Source: an uncultured Gemmatimonadota bacterium (GTDB lineage: Bacteria; Gemmatimonadota; Gemmatimonadetes; Gemmatimonadales; Gemmatimonadaceae). From it: a DNA stretch of 64,000 bases. The position numbers were made by a program, and so were the translations under genes. The stretch lies in contig CADEFN010000001.1 of NCBI GenBank assembly GCA_902826615.1, positions 992,001 through 1,056,000 of the forward strand, read 5' to 3'. Positions 8,372 through 11,762 of this stretch are shown piece by piece; within the stretch, counting starts at the first letter, position 1, and every line of letters starts with the position of its first letter. Under the pieces are notes generated by a model. The model did not search any database and was not told where the DNA came from. It worked only from the letters and a program-made list of their open reading frames with translations.

Positions 8372-8498
8372 GCCGGGGCGCAACCCGTGGCGATACACTG
8401 TGGCCCCACCGTCTCGCTGTCCGGGTTCACCGTGGTGCAAGATCGGAGCAGCGGCTAACCTTCAGGAACACCGGTCAGAACAAAAGGTACGACCCATC

Positions 8499-8996
8499 AT
8501 GCGCAACCTCGCTCGTCTCGCCCTCGCCCTCTCGGCGGCCGCCGCTTTCGCTGCCCCCGTCAGCGCGATCAACGCCCAGGACGACGTGCCCAAGGGCTTC
8601 CAGTACGTGGGCTTCAACATCCTGAGCGGCTATGACTGGGAGATGCCCGACCCGCTCGACCCCACCGCCAAGGTCCCCAAGAACGTGATTCCGACCACGG
8701 TGAAGGCGCTGGACGGCAAATCCGTCTACCTCAAGGGGTTCATGCTGCCGCTCGACCTGGACGCCCAGGGCGTGACCAAGTTCATGCTGAACGCCAGCAT
8801 CGACATGTGCTACTTCGGGGCACCCGTTCGCCTGAACGACTGGATCATGATCACCATGAAAACCGGGAAAAAGGCGAAGTTCACCCACCTCCCCACCGGG
8901 GTCTGGGGGCGGCTCGAAGTCGGCGAAGAGGTCAAGAACGGACGCACGGTCAGCATCTACCGGCTGGTGGCCGAGGACGCTCGTACCGAGGGCTGA
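8499..8996 (+). CDS. exported DUF3299-like protein
   Basis: This is a 165-residue secreted protein of unknown function. Residues 1-27 are a signal peptide (RLALALSAAAAFAAPVSAINAQ). The mature part has ALDGKSVYLKGFMLPLDLD and a single Cys in DMCYFGAPVRLNDWI, which matches the layout I recall for DUF3299 (a GFMLPL strand, a conserved Cys, then an OB-like strand ending in G-x-L-x-V). ATG 8499 was preferred to the earlier in-frame codon because it begins the signal peptide. It appears monocistronic, with a strong terminator 25 bp downstream. Confidence 0.7.
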   Translation: MRNLARLALALSAAAAFAAPVSAINAQDDVPKGFQYVGFNILSGYDWEMPDPLDPTAKVPKNVIPTTVKALDGKSVYLKGFMLPLDLDAQGVTKFMLNASIDMCYFGAPVRLNDWIMITMKTGKKAKFTHLPTGVWGRLEVGEEVKNGRTVSIYRLVAEDARTEG

Positions 8997-9020
8997 CGCC
9001 CCGACGTCTTGAGGCCAGCG

Positions 9021-9054
9021 AAAGGGGAGCCATCGGGGCTCCCCTTTTTGTTTT
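9021..9054 (+). terminator. rho-independent terminator of the DUF3299-like gene
   Basis: GGGGAGCC (9024-9031) pairs with GGCTCCCC (9037-9044) around a 5-nt loop. The stem is extended by three A-T pairs and followed by TTTTTGTTTT. This is the most canonical intrinsic terminator in the window. Confidence 0.92.
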
Positions 9055-9129: not shown

Positions 9130-10155
9130 GTGCCCGCCCGCCTTTCCTGGACCCGATTCTCTGACGAGAAGTTGATGCGTGTTCGCCTCAAGGATCTGGG
9201 GCTGAGCATCGAGGGAACACATCTGGCGGGACTGGTCGACAAACTCTACGAAGAACTCGACGGGCGAAATGTGCGAGTGCGCCCCCATGTGTGGCTGTCG
9301 ACGGAGTGGTTTTCGCCGGCCGGGGTGCCCGGCTTTGCGATTCCGTTTTATCTGGCGCACAAACGCCTCCGTCGGCTCGAGCGCAGCCAGTTTCTGGACG
9401 TCGAAGGGGCGTCACGTGCCGACTGTCTGCGCATCATGCGGCATGAAACGGGGCACGCGATCCAGCATGCCTACCAGCTGCATCGCCGACGCAAGTGGCA
9501 GCAGGTCTTTGGGAAGTCATCGACCGACTACCCGGAGTACTACCGCCCCAATCCCGCAAGTAAACGCTACGTCCAGCATCTCCGGCTCTGGTACGCGCAG
9601 AGTCATCCCGATGAGGATTTCGCTGAAACGTTCGCCGAGTGGCTTCGCCCGCGGAGTGACTGGCGCGTTCGGTACAAGGGATGGCCAGCCCTCAAGAAAC
9701 TGCAGTACGTCGATGAACTCATGGAGGAGCTCTCGCTCCTCAAACCCCGCGTAACCGCACGACGAATCATTGAACCGCTGCACAAACTCGGTCAGACCCT
9801 CGACTCGCACTACACCGAGCGTCGGCGAAAGTACACCACGGTTTTTCCGGACGTGTACGACGCGGACTTGCGCCGGTTGTTCTCTGATCAGCCACATCAT
9901 CGGCGTGCCGAGGCGGCGTCCGCCTTTCTTCGCCGTCATCGCGGCGAAATTCGCCACCTCGTGGCGAAGTGGACAGGTGAGTATCAATACACACTGGATA
10001 CCGTGCTCGGAAATATCATCGGCCGATGTGGCAACCTGCGGCTGCGTGCCGTGGGCAATGAACGACAACTTCTGATGGATTTCTCCGTTCTGCTGACCGT
10101 CAAAACCATGCACTTCCTGTACGAGCAGGGCCGCCGCGACTGGATCGCGTTGTAG
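9130..10155 (+). CDS. putative zinc-binding metallopeptidase
   Basis: A 341-residue cytoplasmic-looking zincin with no signal peptide. The metal site is HETGH (H105, E106, H109), and E166 in DEDFAETFAEWL is the probable third ligand. The GVPGFAIPFYLAHKRLRRLE stretch and the overall layout match the family annotated as putative zinc-binding metallo-peptidase (PF15887 type, from memory). The GTG start at 9130 keeps the N-terminal segment LSWTRFSDEKLMRVRL that I recall in relatives; ATG 9175 is the alternative. Its stop codon is directly followed by the ATG of an ATP-grasp gene, so the two should be co-translated. The substrate is unknown. Confidence 0.75.
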   Translation: MPARLSWTRFSDEKLMRVRLKDLGLSIEGTHLAGLVDKLYEELDGRNVRVRPHVWLSTEWFSPAGVPGFAIPFYLAHKRLRRLERSQFLDVEGASRADCLRIMRHETGHAIQHAYQLHRRRKWQQVFGKSSTDYPEYYRPNPASKRYVQHLRLWYAQSHPDEDFAETFAEWLRPRSDWRVRYKGWPALKKLQYVDELMEELSLLKPRVTARRIIEPLHKLGQTLDSHYTERRRKYTTVFPDVYDADLRRLFSDQPHHRRAEAASAFLRRHRGEIRHLVAKWTGEYQYTLDTVLGNIIGRCGNLRLRAVGNERQLLMDFSVLLTVKTMHFLYEQGRRDWIAL

Positions 10156-11187
10156 ATGGCCCAGCGCAAACTCCGCATCCTCCTCATTTCCGATCCGCGG
10201 TGTATTCCGCCGGAGAACATCGAGCAGCTCTCGGCTGAGGAGCAGCTGCCCTTCCGCACCGAGTGGGATGTGTTGCGCACCTTGCGATCGATCGGGCACG
10301 AGGTGCGCACGCTGGGGGTGTACGACGAGCTGCGACCCATCCGCGCTGCGATCGATGAGTTTGCCCCCGAACTGGTGTTCAACCTGCTCGAGGATTTTGC
10401 CAGCAATACGCTCCAGGGCTACAACGTGGTGGGGCTCTTCGAACTGCTGGGCGTGCGACACACCGGGTGCAATTCGCGTGGGCTGATTCTCTCCGGGGAG
10501 AAGTCGCTGGCCAAGAAGGTGCTGATCTATCACCGCATCCGTGTGCCCGCGTTTCACGTCTTTCCGATCGGCCGCAAGGTTCGGCGACCACGCTCGCTGG
10601 CCTTTCCGCTGATCGTGAAGAGCCCAACGGAGCACTCATCGCTCGGCATCTCGCAGGCCTCATTGGTGAGCAGCGACGACGAGCTGGCGGACCGAGTGGC
10701 CTTTGTGCACCGGCGGCTCAAGACCGACGCGATGGCGGAGCAGTTCATCAGCGGGCGCGAACTGTACGTCGGCGTGATTGGCAACGACCGTCTGGTAGCG
10801 CTCCCGCCGCGAGAGCTGGTGTTCGAGAAGGCGCCCCCAGACACGCCCGTCATCGCGACGGCGCGTGCCAAACACAATCTCGAATACCAGAAGCGCTACG
10901 GCATCGAACAGCGGGCCGCCGACGAGCTGCCACCGCAAATAGCGGCGGACCTGGTCCGCATCTCCAAACGGATTTACCGCATCCTCGGGATAACCGGCTA
11001 CGCACGTTTGGACTATCGCATGAGCCCCGACGGGCAGCTCTGGTTTCTGGAGGCCAACCCCAACCCGGAGCTGACGGATGGGGAGGAGTTTGCGTCGGCG
11101 GCAAAGGCCTATGGGTTCTCGTACCCCGAGCTGCTAGCGCGCATTGTGTCGCTGGGCATGAGTGGGTCCGGCCCCGGCGACGACTGA
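10156..11187 (+). CDS. ATP-grasp ligase, D-Ala-D-Ala ligase-like
   Basis: This 343-residue ATP-grasp enzyme would join a carboxylate to an amine using ATP. The pre-ATP-grasp domain (about 1-100) is followed by the ATP-binding lysine strand FPLIVKSPTEHSSLGI, the second lysine region MAEQFISGRELYVGVIG, and the metal-binding end LWFLEANPNPELTDG. It is not a housekeeping Ddl: the N-terminal sequence is divergent and the context is unusual. ATG immediately follows the peptidase stop with no gap, and the DedA gene start overlaps its TGA by one base. The amino-acid or peptide substrate cannot be deduced. Confidence 0.82.
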   Translation: MAQRKLRILLISDPRCIPPENIEQLSAEEQLPFRTEWDVLRTLRSIGHEVRTLGVYDELRPIRAAIDEFAPELVFNLLEDFASNTLQGYNVVGLFELLGVRHTGCNSRGLILSGEKSLAKKVLIYHRIRVPAFHVFPIGRKVRRPRSLAFPLIVKSPTEHSSLGISQASLVSSDDELADRVAFVHRRLKTDAMAEQFISGRELYVGVIGNDRLVALPPRELVFEKAPPDTPVIATARAKHNLEYQKRYGIEQRAADELPPQIAADLVRISKRIYRILGITGYARLDYRMSPDGQLWFLEANPNPELTDGEEFASAAKAYGFSYPELLARIVSLGMSGSGPGDD

Positions 11188-11762
11188 TGCTCGAGCTGTT
11201 GTGGAGTTATGCGACGTTGGCGGTGTCGGTGGTGTTCACCCAGGAGCTCGGCGCCCTGGTGGGCGGCTTTGCCGCAGAGCAGGGGCATCTCGCCTTTCCG
11301 ACTGTGGTGGGGGTGAGTGCGCTGGCGGTCTTTGGTGAGTCGGCCGTGTTGTACGGGCTGGGCCGATGGCGGGCGGCGTGGGTGCGGCTGCGGCTGCGCA
11401 AGTCACCCCCGGTCGTGAAAAAACTCCTGTCGGCGATGCGCTGGAATCCGTGGCGGGCCACAATCATTTCCCGTTTTGCGTTCGGGGCGCGGATCGCGCT
11501 TCCCATGGCGTGCGGCGCCGCGCGTGTGCCGCCCTGGATTTTCCTGACGGGCACGGCGGTGGCCTCGCTGGTGTGGGCCACGGTGGTGGTGTCGTTAGGC
11601 TGGGTGTTCGGGCAGGGGGCGGTGCTGCTGGTGGGTGAAGTGAAGAAATACGAAGGCACCGTCACCGTAGTGCTGGTGCTGCTGGTGATCGTGGTGTTTG
11701 TCGTACTCAAGCGCCGGCAACGGCGCACCCCGGGCGAATCGCCGCTTGACAGTCAGCGCTGA
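11187..11762 (+). CDS. DedA/VTT-family membrane protein
   Basis: A 191-residue inner-membrane protein of the DedA (SNARE-associated/VTT) family, whose members act in lipid scrambling and envelope homeostasis. The family signature is seen as SRFAFGARIALPMACGAARV followed by WIFLTGTAVASLVWA, then two more hydrophobic helices and a basic tail. TGATG links its start to the ATP-grasp stop, making it the third gene of a coupled operon. Its 3' end overlaps that of the convergent EamA gene by 10 bp. A copy of CGTTAGGC lies at 11593. Confidence 0.78.
   Translation: MLELLWSYATLAVSVVFTQELGALVGGFAAEQGHLAFPTVVGVSALAVFGESAVLYGLGRWRAAWVRLRLRKSPPVVKKLLSAMRWNPWRATIISRFAFGARIALPMACGAARVPPWIFLTGTAVASLVWATVVVSLGWVFGQGAVLLVGEVKKYEGTVTVVLVLLVIVVFVVLKRRQRRTPGESPLDSQR

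Follow-up and report, generated by a model that had tools for sequence, protein, structure and literature searches.

What keeps a gene for a peptidase and a gene for an amide-forming ligase side by side, read as one unit, in several bacterial groups? The question is raised by a locus in a 64,000-nucleotide stretch (the window) of contig CADEFN010000001.1, positions 992,001 to 1,056,000, from the 5.9-Mb genome of an uncultured Gemmatimonadota bacterium (assembly GCA_902826615.1). In this locus, a predicted zinc peptidase gene abuts a gene for an ATP-grasp ligase with the fold of D-Ala-D-Ala ligase (Ddl). Comparison of gene neighbourhoods establishes the two genes as a real, portable two-gene module. 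By analogy with known systems, and with a probability of about one half, we propose that the module is a writer and its eraser, in which the Ddl-fold ligase would form an amide and the co-translated zinc peptidase would cleave that same product.

All positions given below are those of the window, on the plus strand. The peptidase gene (9130..10155) starts with a GTG at 9130, which matches the alignable starts of relatives, and encodes 341 residues up to a TAG stop at 10153-10155. The ligase gene (10156..11187) follows with a gap of 0, its ATG at 10156 abutting that stop in a TAG-ATG junction (10153..10158), and encodes 343 residues up to a TGA at 11185-11187. This type of junction recurs among relatives. 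After redundant peptidases had been collapsed, leaving 112 pairs for counting residues and 108 same-strand pairs for counting junctions, 90/108 showed a 4-base overlap (ATGA); one of the 108 abuts with neither gap nor overlap, like the pair in the window.

A preliminary description of this DNA had remarked that the pairing of hydrolase and ligase seemed familiar from other genomes, and this was borne out by gene neighbourhoods conserved in Gemmatimonadota, Planctomycetota, Alphaproteobacteria, Bradyrhizobium in particular, and a group that bears the label Deltaproteobacteria. Within a set of 21 genomes of close relatives, 15 encode the peptidase, usually with a related ligase alongside. The ligase directly adjoins the peptidase in 79 of 80 named loci that were picked solely for encoding the peptidase, the lone exception (L028) lying on a contig that ends 9 bases past the peptidase match. 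A sample of 200 Gemmatimonadota genomes yielded 52 strong and 31 weak peptidase places, together with 89 ligase rows (E of 1.1e-83 or lower, with G176, which is truncated, added). The ligase was found at most 3 kb from the peptidase in 50 of the 52 strong places, 44 of them with the peptidase followed by the ligase on one strand and 6 convergent. A third arrangement, in which the ligase precedes a peptidase of the same Pfam family that has zinc ribbons at its N terminus, was found in 28 of the 31 weak places. This count leaves out G200:C145, which matched only residues 203-324, and no ligase was seen near G147:C71 and G060:C2. The zinc-ribbon-type peptidase of locus L027, which has double zinc ribbons, exceeds the Peptidase_Mx cut-off, and both versions of the module can occur in one genome (for example, G015, G059, G076, and G101). 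As three arrangements exist, the association must have been kept or rebuilt through rearrangement.

The same picture was obtained outside Gemmatimonadota. Among 199 Planctomycetota genomes, the ligase lies at most 3.5 kb from the peptidase in 41/50 places, and the peptidase comes first in 40/50; these 50 were retained from 60 after fragments and matches weaker than 2e-73 had been dropped, and the 54 ligase rows set against them extend to 4.7e-76, with G794 and G756 added. Only 9 of 398 genomes of Pseudomonadota, which we take to be the phylum of Dongia (L047), from which this sample was drawn, encode the peptidase, and the ligase is adjacent in 9/9. The phylum of L105, a locus titled Deltaproteobacteria, has the peptidase in 25 of 188 genomes. 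All loci brought in from these searches are paired (6/6 from the L105 phylum and 12/12 from Planctomycetota). Moreover, peptidase distances follow ligase distances closely (r = 0.97, n = 112 loci), with 0 of 2000 permutations giving so high a value. No third gene conserved across clades was found among the neighbours of the pair: the largest neighbour clusters were the peptidase and the ligase themselves, antisense or overlapping frames of both, or local synteny. The module appears to move between lineages. Carriage on mobile elements was considered and rejected: the peptidase had no plasmid match, and matches of the ligase in the phage collection were weak (23-28% identity) and Ddl-like. Several divergent copies of peptidase and ligase stand in separate places of one Planctomycetota genome (G692), which hints at expansion.

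At the level of whole genomes, 49 of the 50 Gemmatimonadota genomes with a strong peptidase also encode the ligase at E <= 1e-40, and in the remaining one (G014) a contig edge falls inside a ligase fragment. Within the window's family, G067, G178, and G042, two of which are small genomes of about 2 Mb, hold a ligase with no peptidase match at all, and the sample contains no complete locus with a peptidase in a genome devoid of the ligase. The existence of ligase-only genomes, combined with this lack of complete peptidase-only loci, speaks for dependence of the peptidase on what the ligase makes. The genes alongside the ligase-only loci (G067:C3, G178:C22, and G042:C12; L138-L140) are unrelated.

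The first enzyme is a predicted zinc-dependent peptidase. It matches Peptidase_Mx (PF15887) at 36.7 bits against a cut-off of 27, and its relatives L054, L107, L020, L023, and L027 are likewise above the cut-off. Of its 341 residues, however, the match takes in no more than about 70. The HExxH zinc-binding and catalytic motif reads HETGH (residues 105-109; 9442..9456), and its H105, E106, and H109 are present in 112/112 non-redundant relatives. A second motif, HPDEDFAET (residues 159-167; 9604..9630), is equally constant at H159, P160, E162, D163, and E166 (112/112), and E166 is likely the third zinc ligand. In the predicted structure (mean predicted local distance difference test, pLDDT, 86.6; predicted template modelling score, pTM, 0.72), residues 20-204 have the M34 catalytic domain as their best structural neighbour (Z 8.7, 3.3 Å over 140 residues), followed by Pro-Pro endopeptidases (PPEP; Z up to 7.4) and 4l7a, a putative zinc-binding metallo-peptidase. 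No solved relative was found by sequence at E <= 10. The C-terminal part, residues about 205-341, is largely helical, and no recognised relative of it was found. No 19-residue window has a mean hydropathy above 1.01 in the peptidase or 0.76 in the ligase. Since neither protein has a hydrophobic segment, nothing points to export or membrane attachment, and both enzymes are probably cytoplasmic.

The ligase matches Dala_Dala_lig_C (PF07478), the sole Pfam family above its cut-off, at 92.9 bits against 24. Its predicted structure (pLDDT 93.0, pTM 0.90) superposes as a model on Ddl with a Z of 33.6 and 2.1 Å over 293 residues. Alignments took in 53 and 59 of the proteins at two stages. The family retains the predicted ATP/Mg catalytic set of Ddl (Lys, Lys, Arg-x-Asp, Glu-x-Asn). 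K116 and K155 are present in 112/112 ligases. The putative catalytic and Mg strand R284-x-D286-x-R288 (11005..11019) is conserved to the extent of 111/112 for R284 and D286 and 112/112 for R288. In E299-x-N301 (11050..11058), a presumed Mg-ligand motif by analogy with Ddl, E299 is found in 110/112 and N301 in 111/112.

The part of the protein that would hold the substrate is different. PROSITE signature 1 of Ddl has the pattern HGxxGEDG, which occurs in 0/59 ligases of the family. Our comparison set consisted of 13 Ddl proteins from 17 loci in the same or related genomes, which were chosen for signature 1 or 2 and thus contain a signature in 13/13 by construction; signature 2, as formulated here, matched neither the ligase family nor these 13. 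Alignment with the same set revealed that the N-terminal GGxSxER stretch of Ddl is altered. We then mapped E15, S150, Y216, and S281 of Escherichia coli DdlB, which we take to be its D-Ala-contacting residues, to the conserved Ddl columns E40, S199, Y265, and S330 of L001. These columns are invariant in the Ddl proteins (13/13), whereas the commonest residues in the ligase family are K/R/L, A/S/G, H/W, and E/S/A, respectively; the N-terminal recognition column (E40) lies in a gappy part of the alignment and is less certain. All of the NCBIfam Ddl and Van cut-offs shown were missed, the best score being 118.7 bits against 243 and that for VanA 57 against 775. The ligase thus has the fold of Ddl, but its predicted pocket residues are not those of a D-Ala-D-Ala ligase. 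E79, Y204, R288, N303, and E311 are conserved in the family, and with the exception of R288, which is also common to Ddl, they are candidates for residues of a new pocket. The family comprises two subtypes, with His or Trp following K239. Nor is this ligase the Ddl of its host, as the genome encodes a true Ddl elsewhere (G000:C1:364185; Dala_Dala_lig_C E 1.3e-60, with HGGRGEDG present). Many relatives (among them G005, G008, G010, G011, G013, G015, and G019) also encode two other Ddl-like ATP-grasp proteins in tandem (L193-L198, for example G010:C8:63363-65305), and these pairs are separate from the peptidase module.

A ligase and a hydrolase produced together, with no other partner, suggest opposite or sequential action on one molecule. 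By the chemistry of its family, the ligase would activate a carboxylate with ATP to give an acyl phosphate, which would be joined to an amine to form an amide, presumably linking an amino acid or a short peptide to some acceptor other than D-alanine. The co-translated cytoplasmic peptidase would then hydrolyse the amide of this same product, so that the amount of a peptide tag or peptide metabolite would be controlled by the two enzymes together, much as polyglutamate is by RimK and RimB. We infer that both enzymes act on one molecule and that the peptidase undoes the work of the ligase instead of preparing for it. The making, trimming or recycling of a peptide, as put forward in the preliminary description, survives in this form as a plausible activity; its link to the envelope does not, neither enzyme having a membrane segment. 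A more specific version, a portable system in which a Ddl-derived ligase adds an amino acid at one end of a cellular protein or peptide, to be removed again by a zinc peptidase dedicated to this task, can be put forward only tentatively. As ligases of this family match Ddl models in databases, such a system would have escaped notice.

Several observations weigh against the writer and eraser proposal. Adjacency and overlap by themselves fit an eraser and a substrate-maker alike. Nine of the 50 Planctomycetota peptidase places have no neighbouring ligase, although several of these are divergent copies whose genomes hold ligases elsewhere, and the Planctomycetota genome G789 yielded no ligase at E <= 1e-55; some peptidases may therefore act alone. 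In G163, the peptidase and the ligase are on different contigs. Solo homologues of the peptidase are also found in viral contigs: of 28 with a relative (L222-L249, IMG/VR, up to 182 kb), only L222 has a ligase nearby, and a search of 19 whole viral records, which may be fragments, found the ligase in 1. Finally, the fold assignment of the peptidase relies on a middling Z (8.7 at best), near the stated background of the tool, and Foldseek with the peptidase model returned no match at E <= 0.001.

Of the other explanations, the one that survives best is that the peptidase makes the substrate: it would trim a cellular protein or peptide and expose an end that the ligase then caps or extends. The prevailing peptidase-first order in Gemmatimonadota (44/52 places) and Planctomycetota (40/50) fits such sequential action, and the peptidases of graspetide branches 7 and 8 have been proposed to provide peptides cleaved out of other proteins (PMC8939145). 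However, other orders exist (28 ligase-first and 6 convergent), and the three window-family genomes that hold a ligase with no peptidase match are awkward for a scheme in which the peptidase has to act first. We consider this explanation possible, though rather unlikely.

We looked for a dedicated precursor-peptide gene among open reading frames (ORFs) of 20-110 residues lying up to 500 bp upstream and 600 bp downstream of 111 pairs. None is conserved across clades. A small protein of about 50 residues (EPxGIxISxG...YxWGPxP), with no Pfam or NCBIfam match, is encoded ahead of the peptidase gene, at a distance of 57-165 bp, in 13 distinct loci (L115:1219-1368, L017:7409-7558, and equivalents), and a copy is present at G000:C4:539368-539493. 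Presence counts made by eye placed it in 67 of the 69 window-family genomes of the 200-genome sample, including all 32 that have no peptidase; it adjoins the peptidase in 14 of the 37 that do. As a family-wide gene, present whether or not the genome has the module, it was rejected as a dedicated substrate or precursor. On the opposite strand, 3' of the ligase, six loci (L015, L017, L112, L114, L115, and L121) have a small lysine/alanine-rich ORF resembling a histone tail.

It is also conceivable, but unlikely, that the product of the ligase is a free dipeptide or pseudopeptide, such as an osmolyte, a part of a siderophore or an antibiotic-like compound, that the peptidase recycles or matures. 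Ddl-like ATP-grasp ligases that are not Ddl, such as BacD and MysD, make dipeptides and conjugates, and a patchy distribution, as in the 9 of 398 Pseudomonadota genomes, would suit an accessory metabolite. However, no transporter, tailoring enzyme or regulator is conserved with the pair across clades, and the extra helical part of the peptidase (residues about 205-341) seems to go beyond the needs of a dipeptidase.

The immediate neighbours in the window suggested a third explanation. The ligase stop and the start of a DedA/VTT-domain membrane protein gene (11187..11762; ATG at 11187, 191 residues, stop at 11760-11762) share one A in TGATG (11185..11189). The protein has three hydrophobic segments and matches VTT_dom (PF09335) at 40.5 bits against a cut-off of 33.9. 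The preliminary description had read the TAG-ATG abutment and this one-base overlap as tying three ORFs into a single translational unit concerned with the envelope, and the three ORFs and both junctions are indeed present on the plus strand. The ligase and the peptidase would then edit a peptide attached to a lipid of the undecaprenyl type, with the DedA protein handling this lipid, and a DedA gene does lie 3' of the ligase in three further members of the window's genus (G002, G003, and G004); in G001, from the same genus, the contig ends before that position. Nevertheless, the second junction does not recur, as G002 has about 24 bases between the ligase and DedA. At E 1e-3, none of the 80 named loci gave a DedA match, not even L030, which appears to come from the nearest other genus (G009); two of the 80 (L028 and L029) are members of the genus with contigs that end before or about the DedA position. 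The DedA protein scored 26.8 bits against the cut-off of 250 for the equivalog of the undecaprenyl-phosphate transporter UptA, and neither the peptidase nor the ligase has a membrane segment. Because DedA was found only in the window's genus, the link to the envelope is unsupported. The unit of three genes was not borne out, DedA is a local passenger outside the conserved module, rejected as a part of the system beyond the genus, and the envelope explanation is largely refuted and very improbable. Third-position guanine-cytosine content is 0.71 in the peptidase, 0.82 in the ligase, and 0.82 in the DedA gene.

Upstream, a DUF3299 gene (8493-8996) is followed by a terminator-like hairpin of 12 pairs with a T tail (9020..9048), and by its position between this gene and the peptidase, the hairpin likely marks the upstream boundary of the unit; the region contains 4 terminator-like sites against 2.4 expected from shuffles. 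We rejected the DUF3299 gene as a member of the unit, given that, among the loci searched, it was found only in two genus-level contigs (seen as L028, L029, and L214) and is separated by the hairpin. It is about 93% identical in two contigs of the same genus, compared with 75-83% for the pair.

The weakest explanation, that the ligase is just another D-Ala-D-Ala (or D-Ala-D-Lac) ligase whose partner removes D-Ala-D-Ala in the manner of VanX, has in its favour the fold and the best sequence matches, which are to Ddl and Van ligases, but is most improbable given the widely missed cut-offs, the absent signature, the loss of the first-subsite Glu and of the Ser/Tyr/Ser positions, and a partner that is an HExxH Peptidase_Mx protein and presumably not of the VanX family.

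A role against phages or on their behalf was also considered. None of the three proteins matched a PADLOC family of known anti-phage defence at E <= 0.1. Most viral relatives of the peptidase catalytic domain keep HExxH...HPDEDxAETF; two phage proteins that were examined carry a fused Sod_Fe_C-like domain, and a third is near a weak DUF4055 match. These fusions and this neighbour suggest that a role in the virion is as likely as counter-modification, and the idea of a phage eraser was set aside, the viral relatives mostly having no ligase.

Among known systems, the ligase resembles Ddl in its fold (Z 33.6) and its ATP/Mg catalytic residues but differs from it in the missing signature 1, the changed D-Ala recognition residues, and scores below the NCBIfam cut-offs shown. 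The peptidase shares an HExxH core and an HPxEDxAE-type motif with Peptidase_Mx (PF15887) and Peptidase_Mx1 (PF15890), and 4l7a bears the same descriptive name as the latter; unlike these families, it has an extra C-terminal helical part. No Peptidase_Mx member with an assigned role was found in the literature searched. The likeness to M34/PPEP-type metallopeptidases lies in the fold of residues 20-204, whereas identity is about 13-20%, Z is near background, and there is no membrane or export segment. There is no sign here of a role as a secreted protein or a toxin.

Loci that encode an ATP-grasp ligase together with a peptidase are already known as a kind. Neighbourhoods of this sort are reportedly covered by the amidoligase survey of Iyer et al. 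in 2009. The combination of a Ddl-related ligase with Peptidase_Mx in three arrangements was not described in the literature that we searched, to which that survey did not belong. Graspetide branches 7 and 8 likewise have a peptidase beside an ATP-grasp enzyme at loci without detectable precursors (PMC8939145); their ATP-grasp enzymes are of the graspetide type, and the parts of that paper available to us name no Ddl-like ligase with Peptidase_Mx.

The best worked parallel for the pair is RimK/RimB, which governs polyglutamylation of RpsF in Pseudomonas. RimB takes off the glutamates that the ATP-grasp ligase RimK puts on, besides stimulating RimK; some organisms have RimK alone, and the scattered distribution of the two suggests transfer (PMC11957791). 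A co-encoded ligase and protease, ligase-only organisms, and a scattered distribution are thus common to both systems. However, RimK belongs to another ATP-grasp family, with no RimK-family match of our ligase in Pfam, and RimB is a retropepsin-like aspartic protease, whereas the module described here pairs a Ddl-fold ligase with an HExxH zinc enzyme. If the writer and eraser proposal is true, ligases of this family could be mistaken for second D-Ala-D-Ala ligases, and the two-gene system could be tested in culturable Bradyrhizobium and related strains. Alongside RimK/RimB, it would then represent a second, independently evolved way of attaching peptide tags reversibly, with the Ddl fold as its basis.

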